Origin: an uncultured Rhodopila sp.
GTDB lineage: Bacteria; Pseudomonadota; Alphaproteobacteria; Acetobacterales; Acetobacteraceae
Assembly (NCBI RefSeq): GCF_903915725.1
Contig: NZ_CAIWTY010000007.1
Coordinates: 26,193 to 90,192 of the forward strand
Reading direction: 5' to 3'
DNA length: 64,000 nt
Shown: positions 41,064 through 48,078 of the stretch, one piece after another
Layout of the letters: each line of letters begins with the position of its first letter
How positions within the stretch are numbered: position 1 is the first letter of the stretch
Program-made: the position numbers and the translations under genes
Notes under the pieces: generated by a model
Seen by the model: the letters and a program-made list of their open reading frames with translations, nothing else
What the model was told of the DNA's origin: nothing
The model's database searches: none

Positions 41064-42431
41064 CTAAAGCGCATCCTCCAGCATGTCCTCGATCGCCCGT
41101 TCGAGGTGCCGCAGCGTGTTGCACACCGTCACCAGGCCGCAGAAGGGTGCGTAACGATACATGTCGGAGTCGCCGGTTCCCCAGGCGGAGCGGTATTCCG
41201 GGTTCAGCCAGATGATCCGTTTCGCTCGCAAGGAAATCCGGCCGACGACATCCGTTCTTGGGTCGGATCGGTTGCCGCGGGCGTCGCCGAGGATGATGAC
41301 GGTGGTTTTGTTGGTAACGTGCTGCATCCAGCCGTCCTCGAAATCGGCAAATGCGTTCCCGTAGTTGGAAGATCCAAAGCCGATCGTTGACATGATTTGG
41401 GCGATGGCGGGTTCGATGGGGTGTTTTTCGAGGATTTCGGAAATTTCCATTAATGATCCGGCGAAGGCGAACGACCGGATGTCGGCCAGTGCCTCGTTCA
41501 GCGCGTACATAAACATCAGCAGGAACTGCGACATTGCGGCGACGGAGCCGGAGACGTCGCACAACACCATCACCCTCGGCTTTTCGATGCGCCGCTGCTT
41601 CCAGACAGTAATGAACGGGATGCCGCCCCAGCCCATGTTCCGCCGCAGCGTCCGCCGCGCATCGAGTTGCCCGCGCAACCGCCGCCGCCGGGTTTTTGCG
41701 TAGCGCGCGGCGAGTTTCTTCGCCATCTGGCGGACCAGCACGCGCATCCGGTCCAGATCCCGGCGCTCGATGTTCGACAGGCGGGTGGTTTTCAGCAGGT
41801 CCTCACGGAACTTTTCAGTCTCGCCGCGGGCGAACAGCAGCAGGCTGCGTTCGACGAAATCGCGCACTGCATCCCGTAGGGATTCGATTTTGCCGCTGAG
41901 GAACTTTGCCCGGCCCAGATTTTCGGGCGCGCCGGACTGGCGCATCGCTTCGATGTCGCGTTCCAGGGCGCGCAGGCCCATGCGCTCCATGATGCGGCGG
42001 GCGTAGAGGTTTTTCTGAGTGAAGAAGCGGATGTTTTCGATGCCGGCTTCCTGCGCCGCCTGCTCCATCGCGGTGGCCAGCGCGGCGCGGTCGCCGCCCG
42101 CAAGCAACGATCCGAGCGATTGGCCGCCCATCCCGTCGCTGACAGTCGGTCCGGGTGCACCCGCTGGCTCCACCGCCGGATCGTCCGCCTTGCCGTCGAA
42201 TTCGCCGCGCTTGAAGTAAAGCTCGAACACCTCATCGTATCGCGTCTTTTCGTCAAGCGTCTTCGCTAGCACCAGGCCAAGCGTGTCCTTCAGCGCCGTC
42301 CGGTCATCAAACCCGACCAGATCGACCGCACGCGCCGCGTCGATCCCTTCCGCCGCCGAGACAAGCAGCCCGGCGCCGCGCGCAACCTGCAGGAACCGGC
42401 GCAGCGGCTCACTGGCGGGGACGTCCGCCAC
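41064..42431 (-). CDS. VWA-domain protein (CoxE-like), partner of MoxR ATPase
   Basis: A 455-residue protein with a charged helical N-terminal half and a C-terminal von Willebrand A domain. The MIDAS motif is VMVLCDVSGSVAAMS, with TIGFGSSNYGNAFADF and VIILGDARGNRSDPR further along. MoxR/VWA pairs act as chaperone-like maturation complexes for metal or membrane enzymes; the client is not seen here. The start GTG overlaps the MoxR stop by one base (TAGTG). Confidence 0.9.
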   Translation of the reverse strand: MADVPASEPLRRFLQVARGAGLLVSAAEGIDAARAVDLVGFDDRTALKDTLGLVLAKTLDEKTRYDEVFELYFKRGEFDGKADDPAVEPAGAPGPTVSDGMGGQSLGSLLAGGDRAALATAMEQAAQEAGIENIRFFTQKNLYARRIMERMGLRALERDIEAMRQSGAPENLGRAKFLSGKIESLRDAVRDFVERSLLLFARGETEKFREDLLKTTRLSNIERRDLDRMRVLVRQMAKKLAARYAKTRRRRLRGQLDARRTLRRNMGWGGIPFITVWKQRRIEKPRVMVLCDVSGSVAAMSQFLLMFMYALNEALADIRSFAFAGSLMEISEILEKHPIEPAIAQIMSTIGFGSSNYGNAFADFEDGWMQHVTNKTTVIILGDARGNRSDPRTDVVGRISLRAKRIIWLNPEYRSAWGTGDSDMYRYAPFCGLVTVCNTLRHLERAIEDMLEDAL

Positions 42432-43384
42432 TAAACGACCTGCCGCGCTTTCTGCGTGATCCCGGCAAGCTGCTTTCCGGCAGCCTCGATATCCGCTTCG
42501 AACTTCAGCAGCACATTCAGCGTCTCCCGCACCAGATCGACATCCAGCACCGAGGTGTGCAGCAGCAGCATCACCTTCGCCCAGTCGATCGTTTCACTCA
42601 CCGATGGCACTTTCTTCAGATCCAGCCCCCGCAATTGCTGCACGAAACTGACCAGTTGCCGCAACAGCCGCGCATCGATCCCCGGCACGCGAGACGCAAT
42701 GATCTTCGCCTCCAGCTTTTCGTCCGGAAAGCCGATATGCAGATGCAAACAGCGCCGTTTCAGCGCATCCCCCAAATCCCGCGTGCTGTTCGACGTCAGC
42801 AGCACAATCGGCGGCACCATCGCCGCCACCGTGCCGATCTCCGGTATCGTCACCTGGTAGTCCGACAGAATCTCCAGCAGGAAAGCCTCGAATTCCTGGT
42901 CCGACTTGTCGATCTCATCGATCAGCAGCACCGCCCCGCCCGGCTCCTGCAACGATCGCAGCAGCGGCCGGGGCTCGAGAAACTGATGCGAAAAGAAAAC
43001 ATCCCCGAACGCATGCAGCTTGTCCAGCGCCGCCGCCAAAGTATCCGCCTCGCCAATAACAGAATTGATCTTGTCCTTCAAAATCTGAGTATACAAAAGC
43101 TGCTTGCCGTATTTCCACTCATACAGCGCCTTGGACTCGTCCAGCCCCTCATAGCACTGCATCCGGATAAGCGGCAGCTTCAGCCACGCCGCCACCGACT
43201 TCGCCAGTTCCGTCTTGCCGACCCCCGCCGGACCCTCCACCAAAATCGGCTTTTGCAAATGATGCGACAGGTAAACCGCGGTCGAGATCTGCCGGTTGGC
43301 GATATACCCGGCGCCACCCAAACCCCGCTCCACCGCATCAATCGATGCCAGAGGCGAAGCCCCGGCCCGCGCCGCATCATCCAC
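42431..43384 (-). CDS. MoxR-type AAA+ ATPase (CoxD-like)
   Basis: A 317-residue AAA+ protein with Walker A LVEGPAGVGKTELAK, Walker B AVLLIDEIDKSDQEFE, sensor 1 VLLTSNSTRDLGDALKRRCLHLHIGFP (sensor and arginine finger) and a helical lid. This is the MoxR group that works with the VWA protein encoded next. The usual CO-dehydrogenase genes of CoxD/E are absent here, so the client is unknown. Confidence 0.92.
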   Translation of the reverse strand: MDDAARAGASPLASIDAVERGLGGAGYIANRQISTAVYLSHHLQKPILVEGPAGVGKTELAKSVAAWLKLPLIRMQCYEGLDESKALYEWKYGKQLLYTQILKDKINSVIGEADTLAAALDKLHAFGDVFFSHQFLEPRPLLRSLQEPGGAVLLIDEIDKSDQEFEAFLLEILSDYQVTIPEIGTVAAMVPPIVLLTSNSTRDLGDALKRRCLHLHIGFPDEKLEAKIIASRVPGIDARLLRQLVSFVQQLRGLDLKKVPSVSETIDWAKVMLLLHTSVLDVDLVRETLNVLLKFEADIEAAGKQLAGITQKARQVV

Positions 43385-43439
43385 ATCGAACTCCAGCTAC
43401 CGTTCGGTAACCCGATCGCATTGCCTCGGGGGGTTGTCA

Positions 43440-43640
43440 AATTTGAAGGAAGGCGGGAGCTCCGCCCCTCGACCCCGCAAAGGGGCACAGCCCCTTTGAT
43501 CCCATTGAATGGGTTTGTGCCCGGGAGGGGGCGACTGTGCCGGTTGCAACGACCGTGTCGCCCCCTCCCGGGCACAAACCCAATGATCGGGTTCCAAGGG
43601 CCGCCGGCCCTTGGCGGGTCCAGGGCGGAGCCCTGGCCTT
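43440..43640. repeat. Repeat-rich intergenic stretch with 26-bp inverted repeat
   Basis: Arms 43510-43535 and 43557-43582 are exact reverse complements with a 21-base spacer: a stem of 26 pairs. On both sides are further GC-rich palindromes (for example GGGCCGCCGGCCC at 43599-43611, and CCAGGGCGGAGCCCTGG at 43620-43636). This lies between the LuxR-type gene and moxR, both on the minus strand. No gene. Confidence 0.85.
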
Positions 43641-43641
43641 C

Positions 43642-44181
43642 CTACAATTCGATCACACCCCCCCGCAGGCCTTTCGTCAGGGCTTCCGCGCGGCTGGTGG
43701 CGTCGAGTTTGGTGAACAGGGCTTCCATGTGGAACTTGATCGTGTGCACCGAGATTCCCAGCCGGCGGGCCATGGCTTTGTTGCTCAGGCCCTCGCCGAT
43801 GAGGCCGAGGATTTCGCGTTCCCGCGGGGTCAGCAGGGGGGCGTCGTCGGCGGGGGCAAAGCTGCGCGGTTCGGGCAGGCCGGGCGGGCGCACCAGCAGT
43901 CCGGCGGCGACGGCGCGCAGGGCGGCGTCCAACTGCTCGGCCGATGCGTCGGGGTGCAAAACACCGGCGGGGCCGGTCCAGGACGACGCCCCGGCGGTCA
44001 GTGCGACCACCGGGGCTTCGGACTCGCGCGGCAGGGATGCGCCGCCGGTGTCGCACAGCTCAACGTCGGGGGTGTCGCCGGTGATCGCGTGGCCGGCGGC
44101 TTCCAGCATGGCAACCAGCCCGCGCCGCCGCACCGGGTCCGTGGCGTGGACCCGTATACGCAGGGGCGCGGACAGGCTCAT
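43642..44181 (-). CDS. LuxR-type regulator with a shortened, degenerate receiver-like domain
   Basis: A 179-residue protein. The first 100 residues are receiver-like (LRIRVHATDPVRRRGLVAML; DVELCDTGG; VVALTAG), but the acidic pocket is reduced (TDP in place of the double acid) and the conserved Lys is missing (VLHPDAS). The HTH is intact: LTPREREILGLIGEGLSNKA, then VHTIKFHMEALFTKL. It is the second gene of an operon with the catalytically dead HtrA-like protein, overlapping it by four bases (ATGA). Confidence 0.85.
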   Translation of the reverse strand: MSLSAPLRIRVHATDPVRRRGLVAMLEAAGHAITGDTPDVELCDTGGASLPRESEAPVVALTAGASSWTGPAGVLHPDASAEQLDAALRAVAAGLLVRPPGLPEPRSFAPADDAPLLTPREREILGLIGEGLSNKAMARRLGISVHTIKFHMEALFTKLDATSRAEALTKGLRGGVIEL

Positions 44182-45068
44182 GCTGCCGGCCGGGCGGCGA
44201 CGGTGACGGCGATGGTCTGTACCGCCCCGGCGCGCAGCACCCGCAGCACCACCGGCTGGCCGATACGATCAGGCCCGAGCGACGCCGTCAGCGCCCGCGG
44301 CCGGCTGACCGGCGCGCCGTCGATCTCCAGCACGATGTCGCCCGGCAGGATGCCGGCGGTTGCCGCCGGTGCGCCATCCGCCAGGCTGACCACCATCAGC
44401 CCGCTGTCCCGGCCGGTGGACTGACGGAAACTGTCAGGGATCATCACCGGCTGCAGACCAATCCCGAGCCAGCCGCGGGCAATCCGGCCGTCCGCCAGCA
44501 GCGGATCGACCACCCGCTCCAGCGTCGCGGCGGGGATGACAATGGTCCGGCGCCGCGGCCCCGATGTGGACATGCCAATCAGACCGCCTGCCAGGGAGAT
44601 CACGGGGCCGCCCTCGTCGGCGGCGAGGCGGGAGTCCAGCCGGATCAGCGCGTCGATCCGTCCGCCGGCCATGCTGTGCCATGCCGAACCGACTTCATGC
44701 ACCATCGCCAGCCGCGCTGTCGGCGCACCGGACGCATCGGCGCCCACCAACAGTGCGAGGCTGCCAACGCGGGGCGGCTCGGTTTCGGCGGCGGGCAGGG
44801 CGCCGTCGAGGGGGGATTCCAGCTTCAGCACCGCCACGTTGGTGCCCGGATCTCGGCCCGCCAGGGTCGCGGCGACGCGGGTGCCGCCGCGGATGACGGA
44901 CAGTTCAGTCGCGTCCTCCGGCAGCACCTGCTCCGATGCGACGACCACGTCCGGGCGCCAGAGGATGCCGCTTCTCGGCCGCTGCCCGGTGTGAATACCG
45001 ACCGTGAACGGTGCCGCCTGCGCGGTCCGATCGGCCAGTTCGGTGGAGAGAGAGTCTACGATGCCCAT
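44178..45068 (-). CDS. HtrA-like S1C-fold PDZ protein with all three catalytic residues lost
   Basis: A 296-residue protein with a trypsin-like double barrel and C-terminal PDZ domain (SGLMVVSLADGAPAATAGIL, then PGDIVLEIDGAPVSRP). Aligning by eye with the neighbouring active protease, the catalytic positions are His to Glu46 (VVVASEQVL), Asp to Asn77 (DPGTNVAVLKL) and Ser to Glu152 (ADEGGPVIS). It should be enzymatically inactive. There is no signal peptide or membrane segment, so it is probably cytoplasmic. Start MGIVDSLSTE has AAGGAGA upstream. It is divergent from the protease, with a GxxExxY gene in between. Confidence 0.85.
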   Translation of the reverse strand: MGIVDSLSTELADRTAQAAPFTVGIHTGQRPRSGILWRPDVVVASEQVLPEDATELSVIRGGTRVAATLAGRDPGTNVAVLKLESPLDGALPAAETEPPRVGSLALLVGADASGAPTARLAMVHEVGSAWHSMAGGRIDALIRLDSRLAADEGGPVISLAGGLIGMSTSGPRRRTIVIPAATLERVVDPLLADGRIARGWLGIGLQPVMIPDSFRQSTGRDSGLMVVSLADGAPAATAGILPGDIVLEIDGAPVSRPRALTASLGPDRIGQPVVLRVLRAGAVQTIAVTVAARPAA

Positions 45069-45186
45069 GCGATGAGGTCTCCTTGCATGGGTTGTATCCT
45101 GCTTGGTTCGTGGTGGGGACGGTATCGGGCGGATGGCCGGTTGGGGGCCTGCCCGAATGGCCGGGTGGGGTTCCAGCACCGCGTTC

Positions 45187-45670
45187 AACACAGAGAAAAC
45201 AGACGAGGGCCACAGAGCACACAGAGCAAAGCCGCCCGTTTAGACGGCGTAGCGGCTGACGCCATCCACCATTCGGCGTTCGTGGAAGTTCATCAACAGG
45301 CCAACGGGCAGCCGGCTCATACGCAGGTAGGTCAGGATCTGTGCGATATGAGCCGGGGCGATAGCAGCGACCGCCTTGATTTCCAAAAGCACGGCGTTCG
45401 AAACGACAATGTCGGCCCGAAACCCCAACGGAATCGTCTCGCCCCGATACACGACCGGGATCGGCACCTCGCGCCGGAACTCCAACCCCGCGCGTTCCAG
45501 GTCGCGGCAAAGACACGCAGTATACACAGACTCAAGCAACCCGGGCCCCAGCGTCCGATGGACTCCAATACCCAACCCAATGATACGCTCGGTCAGCACC
45601 TTATGCTTGTACATGGTCATGGTAAAACTCTGTGTCCTCTGTGGCCCTCTGCTTACTTTCTCTGTGTTAA
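45187..45670. repeat. Inverted repeats flanking the GxxExxY gene
   Basis: Left arm about 45187-45228 (AACACAGAGA...GGGCCACAGAG..CACAGAG) and right arm about 45628-45670 read as near-reverse complements over roughly 42 bases with a few mismatches and small gaps. They enclose the GxxExxY gene closely (12 bases inside on the left, 7 on the right). This looks like a mobile or repeat-borne unit. Confidence 0.7.
45240..45620 (-). CDS. GxxExxY family protein (PD-(D/E)XK-like fold)
   Basis: A 126-residue protein with the name-giving motif GLLESVY (LGPGLLESVYTACL), then FRREVPIPVVYRGETIPLGF, and FRADIVVSNAVLLEIKAV, where Asp..Glu-x-Lys resembles a nuclease active site. The C-terminal MNFHERRMVDGVSRY is also typical. 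The biological role of the family is not established. The gene sits between two inverted repeats inside the divergent region of the protease pair, suggesting late insertion. Confidence 0.88.
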   Translation of the reverse strand: MTMYKHKVLTERIIGLGIGVHRTLGPGLLESVYTACLCRDLERAGLEFRREVPIPVVYRGETIPLGFRADIVVSNAVLLEIKAVAAIAPAHIAQILTYLRMSRLPVGLLMNFHERRMVDGVSRYAV

Positions 45671-45791
45671 ACCTTAAGAAATCGTAAACGCGCGCAATCC
45701 CGCGAACAAACCCAAGAACCTCCCCACCCGAATGGCCGGGTGCCTAAAAACCCAAACCCTCCCCATCTCGCCCCGGGAAAGGATACCTCCC

Positions 45792-46730
45792 ATGCCGCTC
45801 GACTCCCTCAACCAGGAACTCGATCCCTATTCCGCACAGGTGGTTCACGCCTTCGACCGAGTCGGCCCCGCCGTCGTGCATGTCACCGCATTCACCAAGG
45901 ACGGCCGCGCCGCCGGCCAAGGCTCGGGCGTCATCTTCACCCCGGACGGCTACGTCCTGACCAATAGCCACGTCGTCGCCAGAGCCGCCCGGCTGCAGGC
46001 CAGCCTCACCGACGGCCAGACCTTCGACGCCGCGCTGGTGGGCGACGACCCCGCCACCGACATCGCCGTCCTGCGCCTGTCGGGCGCCGGCCACCCGCAC
46101 GCCGAACTCGGAGCCTCCGCCGCGCTGCGCGTCGGCCAGCTCGTCGTCGCCATCGGCAATCCGCTCGGCTTCACCTGCACCGTCACCGCCGGGATCGTCA
46201 GCGCCCTCGGCCGCACCCTGCGCACCCGGGGCGGCGGGCTGCTGGACAGCGTGATCCAGACCGACGCGCCGCTGAACCCGGGCAATTCCGGAGGCCCCCT
46301 GGTATCTGGCGCCGGCCGTGTCGTCGGCATCAACACCGCGATGATCGCCCCGGCGCAGGGCATCTGCTTCGCTATCGGCATCGACACCGCAATATGGGTG
46401 GCGACGCGGCTGATGCGCGACGGACGGGTGCGGCGCTCGCGCCTCGGCCTATCCGCCCAGACGGTACCCATCGCCACGCGCACCCGGCGGTTCCACGGCT
46501 TGCAGCAGGCGTCCGGCGTTATGGTGTCCGAACTCCTGCCCGACGGCCCCGGCAAACTGGCCGGCCTGCAGGCGGGCGACGTCCTGCTGGCGTTCGACGG
46601 CATCCCGCTGACCGGCGTGGACGACCTGCACCGCGCCCTGACCGCCGAACGGGCGGGCGCGTCCGTGCCGCTCGACCTGCTGCGCCGGACCGAAAAACTG
46701 ACGCTTCAGGTCACGCCGACGGAAACCTGA
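45792..46730 (+). CDS. HtrA/DegP-like S1C serine protease with PDZ domain, no signal peptide
   Basis: A 312-residue S1C protease with the complete triad: VLTNSHVVARA (His60), DDPATDIAVLRL (Asp90) and LNPGNSGGPLVS (Ser166). A single PDZ follows (GVMVSELLPDGPGKLAGLQA, GDVLLAFDGIP). There is neither a signal peptide nor a membrane anchor at MPLDSLNQELDPYS, so it is likely cytosolic, which is unusual for the family. It is divergent from the dead paralog and its regulator. Its stop overlaps the PEP-CTERM gene, on the opposite strand, by 20 bases. Confidence 0.88.
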   Translation: MPLDSLNQELDPYSAQVVHAFDRVGPAVVHVTAFTKDGRAAGQGSGVIFTPDGYVLTNSHVVARAARLQASLTDGQTFDAALVGDDPATDIAVLRLSGAGHPHAELGASAALRVGQLVVAIGNPLGFTCTVTAGIVSALGRTLRTRGGGLLDSVIQTDAPLNPGNSGGPLVSGAGRVVGINTAMIAPAQGICFAIGIDTAIWVATRLMRDGRVRRSRLGLSAQTVPIATRTRRFHGLQQASGVMVSELLPDGPGKLAGLQAGDVLLAFDGIPLTGVDDLHRALTAERAGASVPLDLLRRTEKLTLQVTPTET

Positions 46731-47385
46731 GCCACCGCCGCGCCGCAGCCACCATCGCCAGCGCCGCCGCCATCAGGCCCAGCGAACCCGGCTCCGGCGC
46801 GGCCTGGCTGAACACGTAGACCCCGTCCGCCTGGCTCATGGCGAAGGCGTTGCCGCTGTCGAAGCCCCAGAGGTCGCCGCCTTGCAGCACGAAGCTGTCC
46901 GAGGTCAGCCCGTACGAATCCGTCCGCCATACGCCGGAATGGATGTCCCTGTCGGCCGCCTGCAGATCGACCGCCTCCGAGCCGACCCCGTCCGACAGCG
47001 TGCCGTCCAGGTAGATCTCGACGCCTGGCCGGTAATCATACGCCGCACCGTTGAACCCGCCGACGGAGGCGGAGTTATCCGGCATGGCGATCGACACCGC
47101 CGCGCCCGGCGCCAGCACCAGGGGCCCGGACGCAAACGACAGGTCGCCGGCAAAAGCCGACACCGCGACCGTGCCGACAACCCCGGAGAACACGGTTGCA
47201 CCGGTATTGGCGATCTCGATAAAGCCGGTGTCAGGCTCCGAGAAGACGTCATCGATCTGGTTCGGGAACGGGTCGCCGTTGGCATAGGCCGTGGTGACGG
47301 TAATGGAGTAGCCTACCGGAGCGCCGTAGCCGAACCCCGGCCAAACCACCCCGACGACAAATACCATTGCGAGCAACATTATCAT
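46711..47385 (-). CDS. PEP-CTERM sorting-signal protein
   Basis: A 224-residue exported protein. It has an N-terminal signal segment (MLLAMVFVVGVVWPGFGYGA), a beta-rich middle (YSITVTTAYANGDPFPNQID, and similar strands) and a C-terminal PEP-CTERM signal: PEPGSLGLMAAALAMVAAAR followed by Arg-rich RWLRFPSA. Such proteins are processed by exosortase and are tied to exopolysaccharide export. This agrees with the glycosyltransferase at 17 kb. No exosortase gene is in this window. Confidence 0.85.
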   Translation of the reverse strand: MIMLLAMVFVVGVVWPGFGYGAPVGYSITVTTAYANGDPFPNQIDDVFSEPDTGFIEIANTGATVFSGVVGTVAVSAFAGDLSFASGPLVLAPGAAVSIAMPDNSASVGGFNGAAYDYRPGVEIYLDGTLSDGVGSEAVDLQAADRDIHSGVWRTDSYGLTSDSFVLQGGDLWGFDSGNAFAMSQADGVYVFSQAAPEPGSLGLMAAALAMVAAARRWLRFPSA

Positions 47386-47392
47386 GAATGCA

Positions 47393-47421
47393 ACTATAGG
47401 TATACATATCGCGAATGTCTA
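47393..47421 (-). promoter_or_regulatory. Sigma70-like promoter of the PEP-CTERM gene
   Basis: TAGACA (47416-47421) and TATAGT (47393-47398) are separated by 17 bases on the minus strand, each one mismatch from consensus. The predicted start of transcription would be only 1-2 bases before the ATG, so the message may be leaderless, in line with the absence of a ribosome site. Confidence 0.5.
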
Positions 47422-47445
47422 CTCCAAATTGAGCGGAGACGCGGC

Positions 47446-48078
47446 GTGACCGCGGCCGACCCGATCATCCTGTTTCACGCCCCGCAATCGCGCTCCACCG
47501 GCACCTTGGTCCTGCTGGAGGAACTCGGCGCACCCTATGAACTGCGGCTACTGAACATGAAGGCCGGCGAGAACCGCCAGCCGGCGTACCTCGCGGTCAA
47601 CCCGATGGGGAAGGTGCCGGCCATCCTGCATAACGGCGCCCTGGTCACCGAGCAGATCGCGATCTCGATCTATCTGGCCGACCTGTTTCCCGCCGCCGCC
47701 CTGGCGCCGGGCCTGGATGACCCGCGCCGCGGCCCGTATCTGCGCTGGATGGCGTTCTACGCCGGCAGTTTCGAGCCGGCCGCCGTAGACCGGGCGATGA
47801 AACGCGAGCCGGGGCCGCAGGCGATGTCGCCATACGGCAGTTTCGACGCGGTACTGGCCACGCTGGCCGCGGAATTGCAGGCCGGGCCGTACATAATTGG
47901 CGAGCAATTCTCCGCCGCCGACGTGCTGTGGGGCGGCGCCTTGCAGTGGATGACGATGTTCGGGATCGTCCCCGCAACCCCGGAGATCCAAGCCTATATC
48001 GAGCGCACAACGACCCGGCCCGCGGCAGTGCGCGCGCGGCAGCGGGATGCGGAACTGGCAGCAGCACAGAGCGCCTGA
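47446..48078 (+). CDS. Glutathione S-transferase family protein
   Basis: A 210-residue GST. The thioredoxin-like domain has [21 protein letters not shown] and [26 protein letters not shown], the usual cis-Pro-Val and Glu/Ser glutathione site. The C-terminal helical domain has [18 protein letters not shown]. The start is GTG at 47446 after GAGCGGAG. Substrate unknown; no obvious neighbour function. Confidence 0.88.

Follow-up and report, generated by a model that had tools for sequence, protein, structure and literature searches.

Among HtrA proteins, DegS is a membrane-anchored active protease in which peptide binding changes the active-site loops, and DegS and AlgW have a signalling role in the known cases. 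In magnetotactic bacteria, the HtrA-fold pseudoprotease MamO is required for MamE-dependent proteolysis. According to the available text of the MamO study (PMC4794232), this role was shown to be non-catalytic, the TauE domain of MamO is needed to activate MamE, and the protein carries a di-His metal site. For pseudo-receiver regulators, the on/off mechanism is named as the central unanswered question in the available text of a 2025 review (PMC12632262), and the words HtrA, protease, pseudoprotease and proteolysis are absent from its main text. Searches of the CC0, CC BY and CC BY-SA literature of PMC turned up no description of an HtrA pseudoprotease that is coupled to a regulator of the LuxR type.

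The window analysed here is a stretch of 64,000 nucleotides from an uncultured Rhodopila sp. (contig NZ_CAIWTY010000007.1), in which the following features were assigned:

43642..44181, minus strand: LUX, a NarL/FixJ-type regulator of 179 aa with a shortened pseudo-receiver and a LuxR-type HTH (Pfam, model, Foldseek, column counts)
44178..44181, minus strand: overlap of the PSE stop and the LUX start, ATGA (sequence)
44178..45068, minus strand: PSE, an HtrA-fold pseudoprotease of 296 aa, protease domain plus PDZ (Pfam, alignments, AlphaFold2, Foldseek)
45123..45135, minus strand: candidate operator dyad CATCCGCCCGATA, its first base 67 bp upstream of the PSE start
45152..45164, minus strand: weaker second copy of the dyad, CCGGCCATTCGGG, 29 bp further upstream (read from the sequence)
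45188..45667, no strand: insertion between PSE and HTR, outside the conserved unit
45240-45620, minus strand: GxxExxY/PD-(D/E)XK gene inside the insertion, bounded by inverted ACACAGAGAA/TTCTCTGTGT
45792..46730, plus strand: HTR, an HtrA-type serine protease of 312 aa without a visible signal peptide, best read as an optional third gene

The first-pass annotation had described two divergently encoded HtrA-type PDZ proteins within 44178..46730. PSE and HTR both match Trypsin_2 and PDZ in Pfam and lie on opposite strands, and the interval covers both genes; LUX (43642-44181) falls outside it. The start of PSE was set at ATG 45068 and not at GTG 45191 because the ATG is conserved in relatives and the longer form would cross the conserved dyad. 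A search of 43000-47500 against Rfam gave no match at the gathering threshold. The GxxExxY gene was full-length only in L002 and partial in L001 among 15 loci compared. The MadB/MadC-like AAA/VWA genes at 41064-43384 were rejected as partners: both adjoin LUX only in L001, L004, L011 and L012 of the 15 loci, and they are intact in L012 despite the broken PSE and LUX there. In L005, the start of the MadB-like gene lies at the contig end. Literature searches on MadR/MadB/MoxR/VWA and on MadR/MadS returned nothing evidently about these genes.

PSE has the chymotrypsin-like domain followed by a PDZ domain that is characteristic of HtrA/S1C proteins (Pfam Trypsin_2 and PDZ_2). Only Trypsin_2 and PDZ models were matched, and the TauE domain of MamO-type pseudoproteases was not among the matches. 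The AlphaFold2 model had a mean pLDDT of 90.6, and its best Foldseek matches were DegS, MucD and Deg1. In place of the His-Asp-Ser triad of an active peptidase, PSE carries Gln47/Asn77/Glu152. Asn77 and Glu152 agree with the residues first read at these positions; Glu46 was replaced by Gln47, since the latter occupies the His column in the MAFFT and profile alignments. An ungapped phmmer alignment sets the catalytic-His column one residue further on. No His is present at PSE residues 42-50 in any of 70 PSE rows, two of which are empty in that stretch.

The locus set comprised 70 PSE loci, the window itself not being one of them; L019 and L021-L029 did not enter these counts, since they are fragments, duplicates or repeated views of loci that go by other names. 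Among the 61 loci scoring at least 200 bits, 34 have Gln-Asn-Glu and 24 have Glu-Asp-Glu in the triad columns, together 58/61. Loss of the triad is conserved among the homologues, one of the two conditions of the check set out in the first-pass annotation: the catalytic His occurs in none of the 68 readable rows and the catalytic Ser in 2/67, both of these being distant paralogues. The 20 readable rows among 22 HTR/HtrA rows read H-D-S. Among the matches listed, the source-database names for PSE members are mostly S1C (S1-C subfamily) serine protease; the sequence speaks against the activity that these names imply. The reported lack of a signal peptide was also seen for both PSE and HTR by Kyte-Doolittle hydrophobicity of the N-terminus, where the most hydrophobic 15-residue stretch had a mean of 0.51 in PSE and 1.01 in HTR. 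N-terminal values of up to 1.99 (L056) were found in PSE relatives, in Ala-rich stretches, and three ordinary HtrAs of the same genome showed hydrophobic leaders by eye when the upstream sequence was inspected.

Of the 58 loci with at least 600 bp of downstream sequence, 49 have LUX after PSE in the same orientation, and the count is 49/51 when a score of at least 200 bits is also required; LUX is present in a further 6 of the 12 loci with shorter downstream sequence. Based on the gene caller's starts, the 4-bp overlap is found in 26 of the 55 LUX-paired loci and a gap of at most 3 bp in 41/55. In the window, the coupling suggested by the first reading is seen at the gene level, with the stop and start sharing ATGA at 44178-44181. 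PSE and LUX are thus supported as a conserved unit in which an inactive HtrA is tied to a regulator. PSE is retained in three or four congeneric genomes that have no LUX, and may therefore have a job of its own. Genome-wide searches did not find LUX in G156, G463 or G416, and yielded only a weak regulator match in G462 (67.8 bits).

The HTH of LUX, the LuxR-type output domain of NarL/FixJ regulators, matched Pfam GerE at 61.2 bits, and Foldseek matched the model (mean pLDDT 81.9) to ChrA, LiaR and FixJ. A phosphorylatable receiver carries an acidic pair, an Asp, a Thr/Ser and a Lys. LUX keeps Asp44 at the phospho-acceptor column. The Lys and one residue of the acidic pair are gone, and helix alpha2 is missing from the model, consistent with the degraded pocket noted at first. 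The first acidic column holds Asp in only 2/54 filled rows and the Lys column holds no Lys in 47. By these counts LUX falls outside the phosphorylatable receivers of NarL/FixJ regulators and belongs with the pseudo-receivers (atypical response regulators), which have a receiver-like domain without key phosphotransfer residues. A phosphorylation input to LUX may be possible, since the phospho-Asp is kept in 34/52 filled rows and Arg is found in 11 rows of the Lys column. A divergent histidine kinase adjoins PSE in 9 loci, and kinase input could matter in that lineage.

Within 110 bp upstream and with at most one mismatch, the 13-bp dyad was found for 42 of the 54 LUX-paired PSE genes; the loci used for this count had also supplied the pattern. 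The same search gave 8/418 for the other genes of these loci and 0/11 for PSE genes without LUX; the counts with and without LUX are not independent, because the cases without LUX either come from a single genus, perhaps through one loss, or are distant paralogues. Even the loose form was missing from 12/54 LUX-paired PSE genes, and the PSE genes of G156, G463, G416 and G462 had no dyad at one mismatch or fewer. In the congeneric genomes examined, the dyad is present with LUX and absent without it. Not counted were L009, L012 and L015, which are cut or broken, and L082, for which no start was called. L003, L042, L043, L050 and L085, with a loose dyad and a contig end at the place of LUX, were counted neither with nor without LUX. 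L188 was placed in the group without LUX: its contig stops within PSE, and a genome-wide search did not find LUX.

Outside clade 1, the strict form was found at two mismatches or fewer in only 4/33 loci. The PSE promoter is the sole exact match to the extended pattern in its own 6.7-Mb genome, and on this exact pattern a general regulon was rejected; 11 one-mismatch sites were also listed. At two mismatches or fewer there were 111 matches compared to 38 for the reversed control, so the weaker sites are not confined to the PSE locus. A role of the dyad as HTR operator was also rejected, as HTR genes away from PSE are without the strict form at two mismatches or fewer, except in L092. The L092 contig may be broken next to PSE.

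What the data show for the pair is conserved triad loss, purifying selection, a steady order of PSE and LUX, a degraded receiver and an upstream dyad. The pair would likely work as a switch in signalling that dispenses with both proteolysis and phosphorylation. The favoured reading, judged to stand an even chance, is that PSE is the partner that switches LUX and that LUX is predicted to autoregulate by binding the dyad in the promoter of the pair. The joint truncation of PSE and LUX in L012, where HTR was not found, speaks for this reading. In the cytosol, the PDZ domain of PSE would bind a small ligand or the exposed ends of peptides, and binding would shift the former active-site loops, by analogy with DegS. 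The changed PSE would then free or engage LUX through the pseudo-receiver, and LUX would set the expression of the pair and possibly, at loci with a divergent HTR, that of the cytosolic protease. A bolder and distinctly more tentative form casts the two as a signalling pair of dead enzymes, in which the ex-active site (Gln-Asn-Glu/Glu-Asp-Glu) would serve as a PDZ-coupled pocket that senses peptide ends or metal ions and toggles the pseudo-receiver factor. If true, the pair would give a wired input to a class of regulators for which few switches are known. As LUX has a linked candidate partner and a candidate operator, two small proteins and a single DNA site would be enough to test how pseudo-receivers switch.

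Alternatively, PSE could be its own effector, a cytosolic peptide- or metal-binding protein, with LUX regulating its expression only, without contact. PSE persists in some congeneric genomes that have no LUX, and also in the form of PSE2 paralogues, which is consistent with this. So are the position of the genome's sole exact match of the extended dyad pattern at the PSE promoter and the presence, in another lineage, of nearby GrpE (10 loci), DnaK (8 loci) and DnaJ (5 loci). However, near-constant linkage to a regulator without a full phosphorylation pocket would be more usual for interacting pairs, and this alternative is considered doubtful.

HTR retains the full triad first read in it, His60, Asp90 and Ser166, given a start at ATG 45792 (312 aa). 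PSE could in principle be a non-catalytic subunit or activator of HTR, by analogy with the need for MamO in MamE-dependent proteolysis (PMC4794232, available text), with LUX merely regulating the set. In keeping with this, PSE is present in 28 of 40 HTR genomes versus 53 of 299 genomes overall (p about 9e-16, ignoring kinship), and among the 54 loci of at least 200 bits and with at least 1200 bp upstream, HTR is divergent in 12 and tandem in 1. Against it, HTR is absent nearby in the other 41, and 25 of the 53 PSE-holding genomes gave no HTR match at E<=1e-60 (about 7 candidates scored per genome). G143 carries both genes on a single contig of 6.5 Mb, at a distance of 4.5 Mb in contig coordinates. 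The sampled tree places all 33 PSE-type rows in a single clade with an SH-aLRT of 100, separate from the 17 HTR rows. A subunit or activator of HTR is therefore an unlikely role for PSE. The three-gene synteny set beforehand as the test of the first-pass proposal held for PSE-LUX (49/58) and only in part for the active protease, which adjoins in 13/54, and a strict three-gene system was rejected as the core. Because HTR adjoins PSE only in part of the loci, tethering of an active protease is not a constant feature of the PSE-LUX unit. The constant partner of PSE is LUX, not HTR, and HTR is best read as an optional accessory rather than a core partner.

PSE is under purifying selection and not decaying, with dN/dS values of 0.080-0.199 in 8 pairs; those of LUX were 0.079-0.114 in 5 pairs. 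Although the lost triad, the truncated PSE and LUX of L012 (where HTR was not found) and an HTR split over two frames in L030 might suggest a functionless, decaying copy of an active HtrA, the low dN/dS, the single clade and the conservation of the replacement residues across genera rule this out as a serious candidate, leaving it a very small probability. Acetic-acid family bacteria often carry this tightly linked pair of pseudoprotease and degraded-receiver regulator, kept by selection.

PSE resembles DegS, its best structural match, and AlgW in having one protease domain and one PDZ domain; it differs from DegS in being without the triad and without a visible membrane anchor. Like BldM/WhiI, NblR and CmrT (PMC12632262), LUX joins a receiver-like domain without phosphorylation residues to a DNA-binding domain, but its model also has no helix alpha2, and a presumed partner gene is tightly linked to it. 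With MamO of the MamO/MamE system, PSE shares the HtrA fold, a degenerate triad and an active HtrA encoded with it. MamO has a TauE domain and a di-His site, and a paired regulator is not described for it in the available text of PMC4794232, whereas PSE has a PDZ domain, reads Gln-Asn-Glu or Glu-Asp-Glu in the triad columns and, at most loci, comes with a LuxR-type partner. PSE thereby adds a family of HtrA pseudoproteases beside MamO.

In the window (G000:C7:26193-90192, part of a 6.7-Mb genome), the genes concerned are arranged as listed below. The closest named relatives among the matches returned by a scan of genome contigs were Rhodopila and Acidisphaera.

43642-44181, minus strand: LUX, LuxR/NarL-type regulator with a degraded receiver; its ATG start overlaps the PSE stop in ATGA
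44178-45068, minus strand: PSE, HtrA-fold pseudoprotease of 296 aa, divergent from HTR and sharing its two-domain make-up
45240-45620: GxxExxY/PD-(D/E)XK gene, between PSE and HTR
45792-46730, plus strand: HTR, HtrA-type protease, 312 aa

The full catalytic triad that the first-pass annotation ascribed to one protease was confirmed in HTR as His60, Asp90 and Ser166 (in most comparisons HTR was taken from 45795, without the first Met). For the dead paralogue, the alignment placed Gln47, Asn77 and Glu152 in the triad columns; the earlier assignment of Asn77 and Glu152 was retained, while Glu46 was found to adjoin the true column residue, Gln47. The AlphaFold2 model of PSE had a mean pLDDT of 90.6, and its top solved-structure matches were DegS, MucD and Deg1.

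PSE is a member of a family, not a wreck. The contig scan gave 15 loci, 14 of which carried at least a piece of PSE, and a protein search returned 2656 matches at E≤1e-30, ordinary HtrAs included. E46, Q47, N77 and E152 were present in 132/132 rows, comprising the best 120 of these matches and 12 locus rows, some duplicating each other. At 61 loci scoring ≥200 bits, the triad columns read Gln-Asn-Glu (34), Glu-Asp-Glu (24) or Gly-Asp-Glu (1), with two incomplete, and no His was seen at residues 42-50 in any readable row among the 70 PSE rows examined. In a 59-row tree built by a quick method, the 33 PSE-type rows, three of which come from other families of Alphaproteobacteria, formed one clade (SH-aLRT 100) separate from the 17 HTR rows. 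Pairwise dN/dS was 0.080-0.199 in eight PSE pairs, 0.075-0.130 in seven HTR pairs and 0.079-0.114 in five LUX pairs.

Three score groups were apparent among 299 genomes from the window's taxonomic family, with about eight candidates scored per genome: the PSE class, weaker dead paralogues and ordinary HtrAs. The PSE class, read from the top of the score list, was present in 53. A sample of 385 genomes from the window's taxonomic class gave matches at E≤1e-52 in five, the window's own included. In two of the other four, LUX lies downstream of a PSE-type gene, which in one case has Gln instead of Glu in the Ser column; in a third, LUX precedes an odd dead gene of HtrA type, and the remaining match was an ordinary HtrA. 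Locus L180, from another alphaproteobacterial family, has the order LUX, dead HtrA-like gene, two HtrA-type genes, the last two with intact triad residues where readable. The window's genome also encodes another dead paralogue of HtrA fold, more distantly related (L082 4223-5113; G000:C86:118222-119115), which has no adjoining LUX and belongs to the separate PSE2 subclade.

The steady partner of PSE is LUX. Sufficient downstream sequence (≥600 bp) was available for 58 of the 70 PSE-type loci, and LUX followed on the same strand in 49; the nine without it were L007, L054 and seven distant paralogues. Counting only scores ≥200 bits with ≥600 bp downstream, the figure was 49/51. HTR was divergent from PSE in 12 loci, in tandem in one and not nearby in 41 (54 loci with ≥200 bits and ≥1200 bp upstream), or 13, 1 and 49 without the score limit (63 loci). 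The conserved three-gene synteny proposed in the first-pass annotation as a check on a single small system thus held for PSE and LUX but only in part for HTR. Across the 299 genomes, HTR (E≤1e-60, about seven candidates scored per genome) was found in 40, of which 28 were among the 53 with PSE, a strong co-occurrence (p ~9e-16, uncorrected for kinship).

The remaining neighbours vary by lineage. MoxR-type AAA (MadB-like) and VWA/CoxE (MadC-like) genes, both under the NCBIfam cut-offs, lie downstream of LUX at 41064-43384 and also occur in near relatives; both are intact in L012, where PSE and LUX are truncated and HTR was not found. A histidine kinase-type gene (cluster c3) is divergent to PSE in nine loci of one lineage (L037, L039, L041, L043, L045-L047, L049 and L085). 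GrpE, DnaK and DnaJ were encoded near PSE in 10, 8 and 5 loci, respectively, one representative of each, and of the kinase, being checked by Pfam. In one lineage (L058, L061, L064, L069, L072 and others), the genes downstream of PSE-LUX include grpE and dnaK, joined at some loci by dnaJ, which hints at a connection to protein quality control in the cytosol.

LUX belongs to the pseudo-receiver regulators. The structure predicted for it (mean pLDDT 81.9, pTM 0.50, weak linker) matched NarL/FixJ-type regulators and lacked a helix at the alpha2 position. In 55 aligned LUX rows, with columns named after the general receiver fold, Asp occupied the first acidic-pair column in 2/54 and the phospho-Asp column in 34/52 filled positions, and the Lys column held no Lys in 47 filled (Pro 29, Arg 11). 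Given these counts, canonical phosphorylation is unlikely, most clearly for the rows without the phospho-Asp.

A candidate operator dyad, CATCCGNCCGATRC, was found upstream of PSE in many loci, including some that lack HTR. In clade 1 it occurred with ≤1 mismatch in 18/32 loci and ≤2 in 26/32, compared to 1 and 4 of 33 loci outside the clade and 0 and 1 of 418 control genes of the same loci. The looser form CATNYGNSCNATR, at ≤1 mismatch, preceded 42/54 LUX-paired PSE genes, 8/418 control genes and 0/11 PSE genes without LUX; five loci with this dyad whose contig ended before LUX were left out. Of 40 looser sites with printed positions, 38 started 46-84 bp upstream of PSE, the others at 25 and 106 bp. 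Within the window's genus, the dyad was present in all seven LUX-bearing genomes examined. LUX was absent genome-wide from G156, G463 and G416 and only weakly matched in G462, and the PSE genes of these four had no dyad at ≤1 mismatch (Fisher p 0.003, though these losses may go back to a single event). An extended pattern matched the window's genome exactly once, at PSE; 11 further sites differed at one position, and allowing up to two mismatches gave a total of 111 sites versus 38 for a reversed control. Since the pattern was derived from the same loci, its precise form is a fit to them, and the weight rests on the control genes and on the joint absence of dyad and LUX.

The GxxExxY gene of the window is flanked by inverted ACACAGAGAA/TTCTCTGTGT (45155-45742 region) and bounded by repeated GAATGGCCGGGTG at 45155 and 45730, which suggests insertion of a small mobile element. 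The gene is also present at full length in L002 and in part in L001. In the window, the putative insertion now stands between HTR and the dyad.

The dead HtrA-fold protein and the pseudo-receiver regulator form a conserved, tightly linked pair under purifying selection, and the upstream dyad goes with the presence of LUX. PSE may control LUX through contact in response to a ligand such as a peptide end, and LUX would bind the dyad and autoregulate. At HTR-divergent loci the dyad lies between both genes and could serve PSE and HTR.

Of the HtrA pseudoproteases studied by experiment in the literature consulted, MamO comes closest (PMC4794232). Partner proteins exist for some pseudo-receivers, according to a 2025 review (PMC12632262), the main text of which contains none of the terms HtrA, protease, pseudoprotease or proteolysis. 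As no report of an HtrA pseudoprotease paired with a LuxR-type regulator was seen among the papers listed by literature searches, PSE-LUX is filed as a new combination of known parts.
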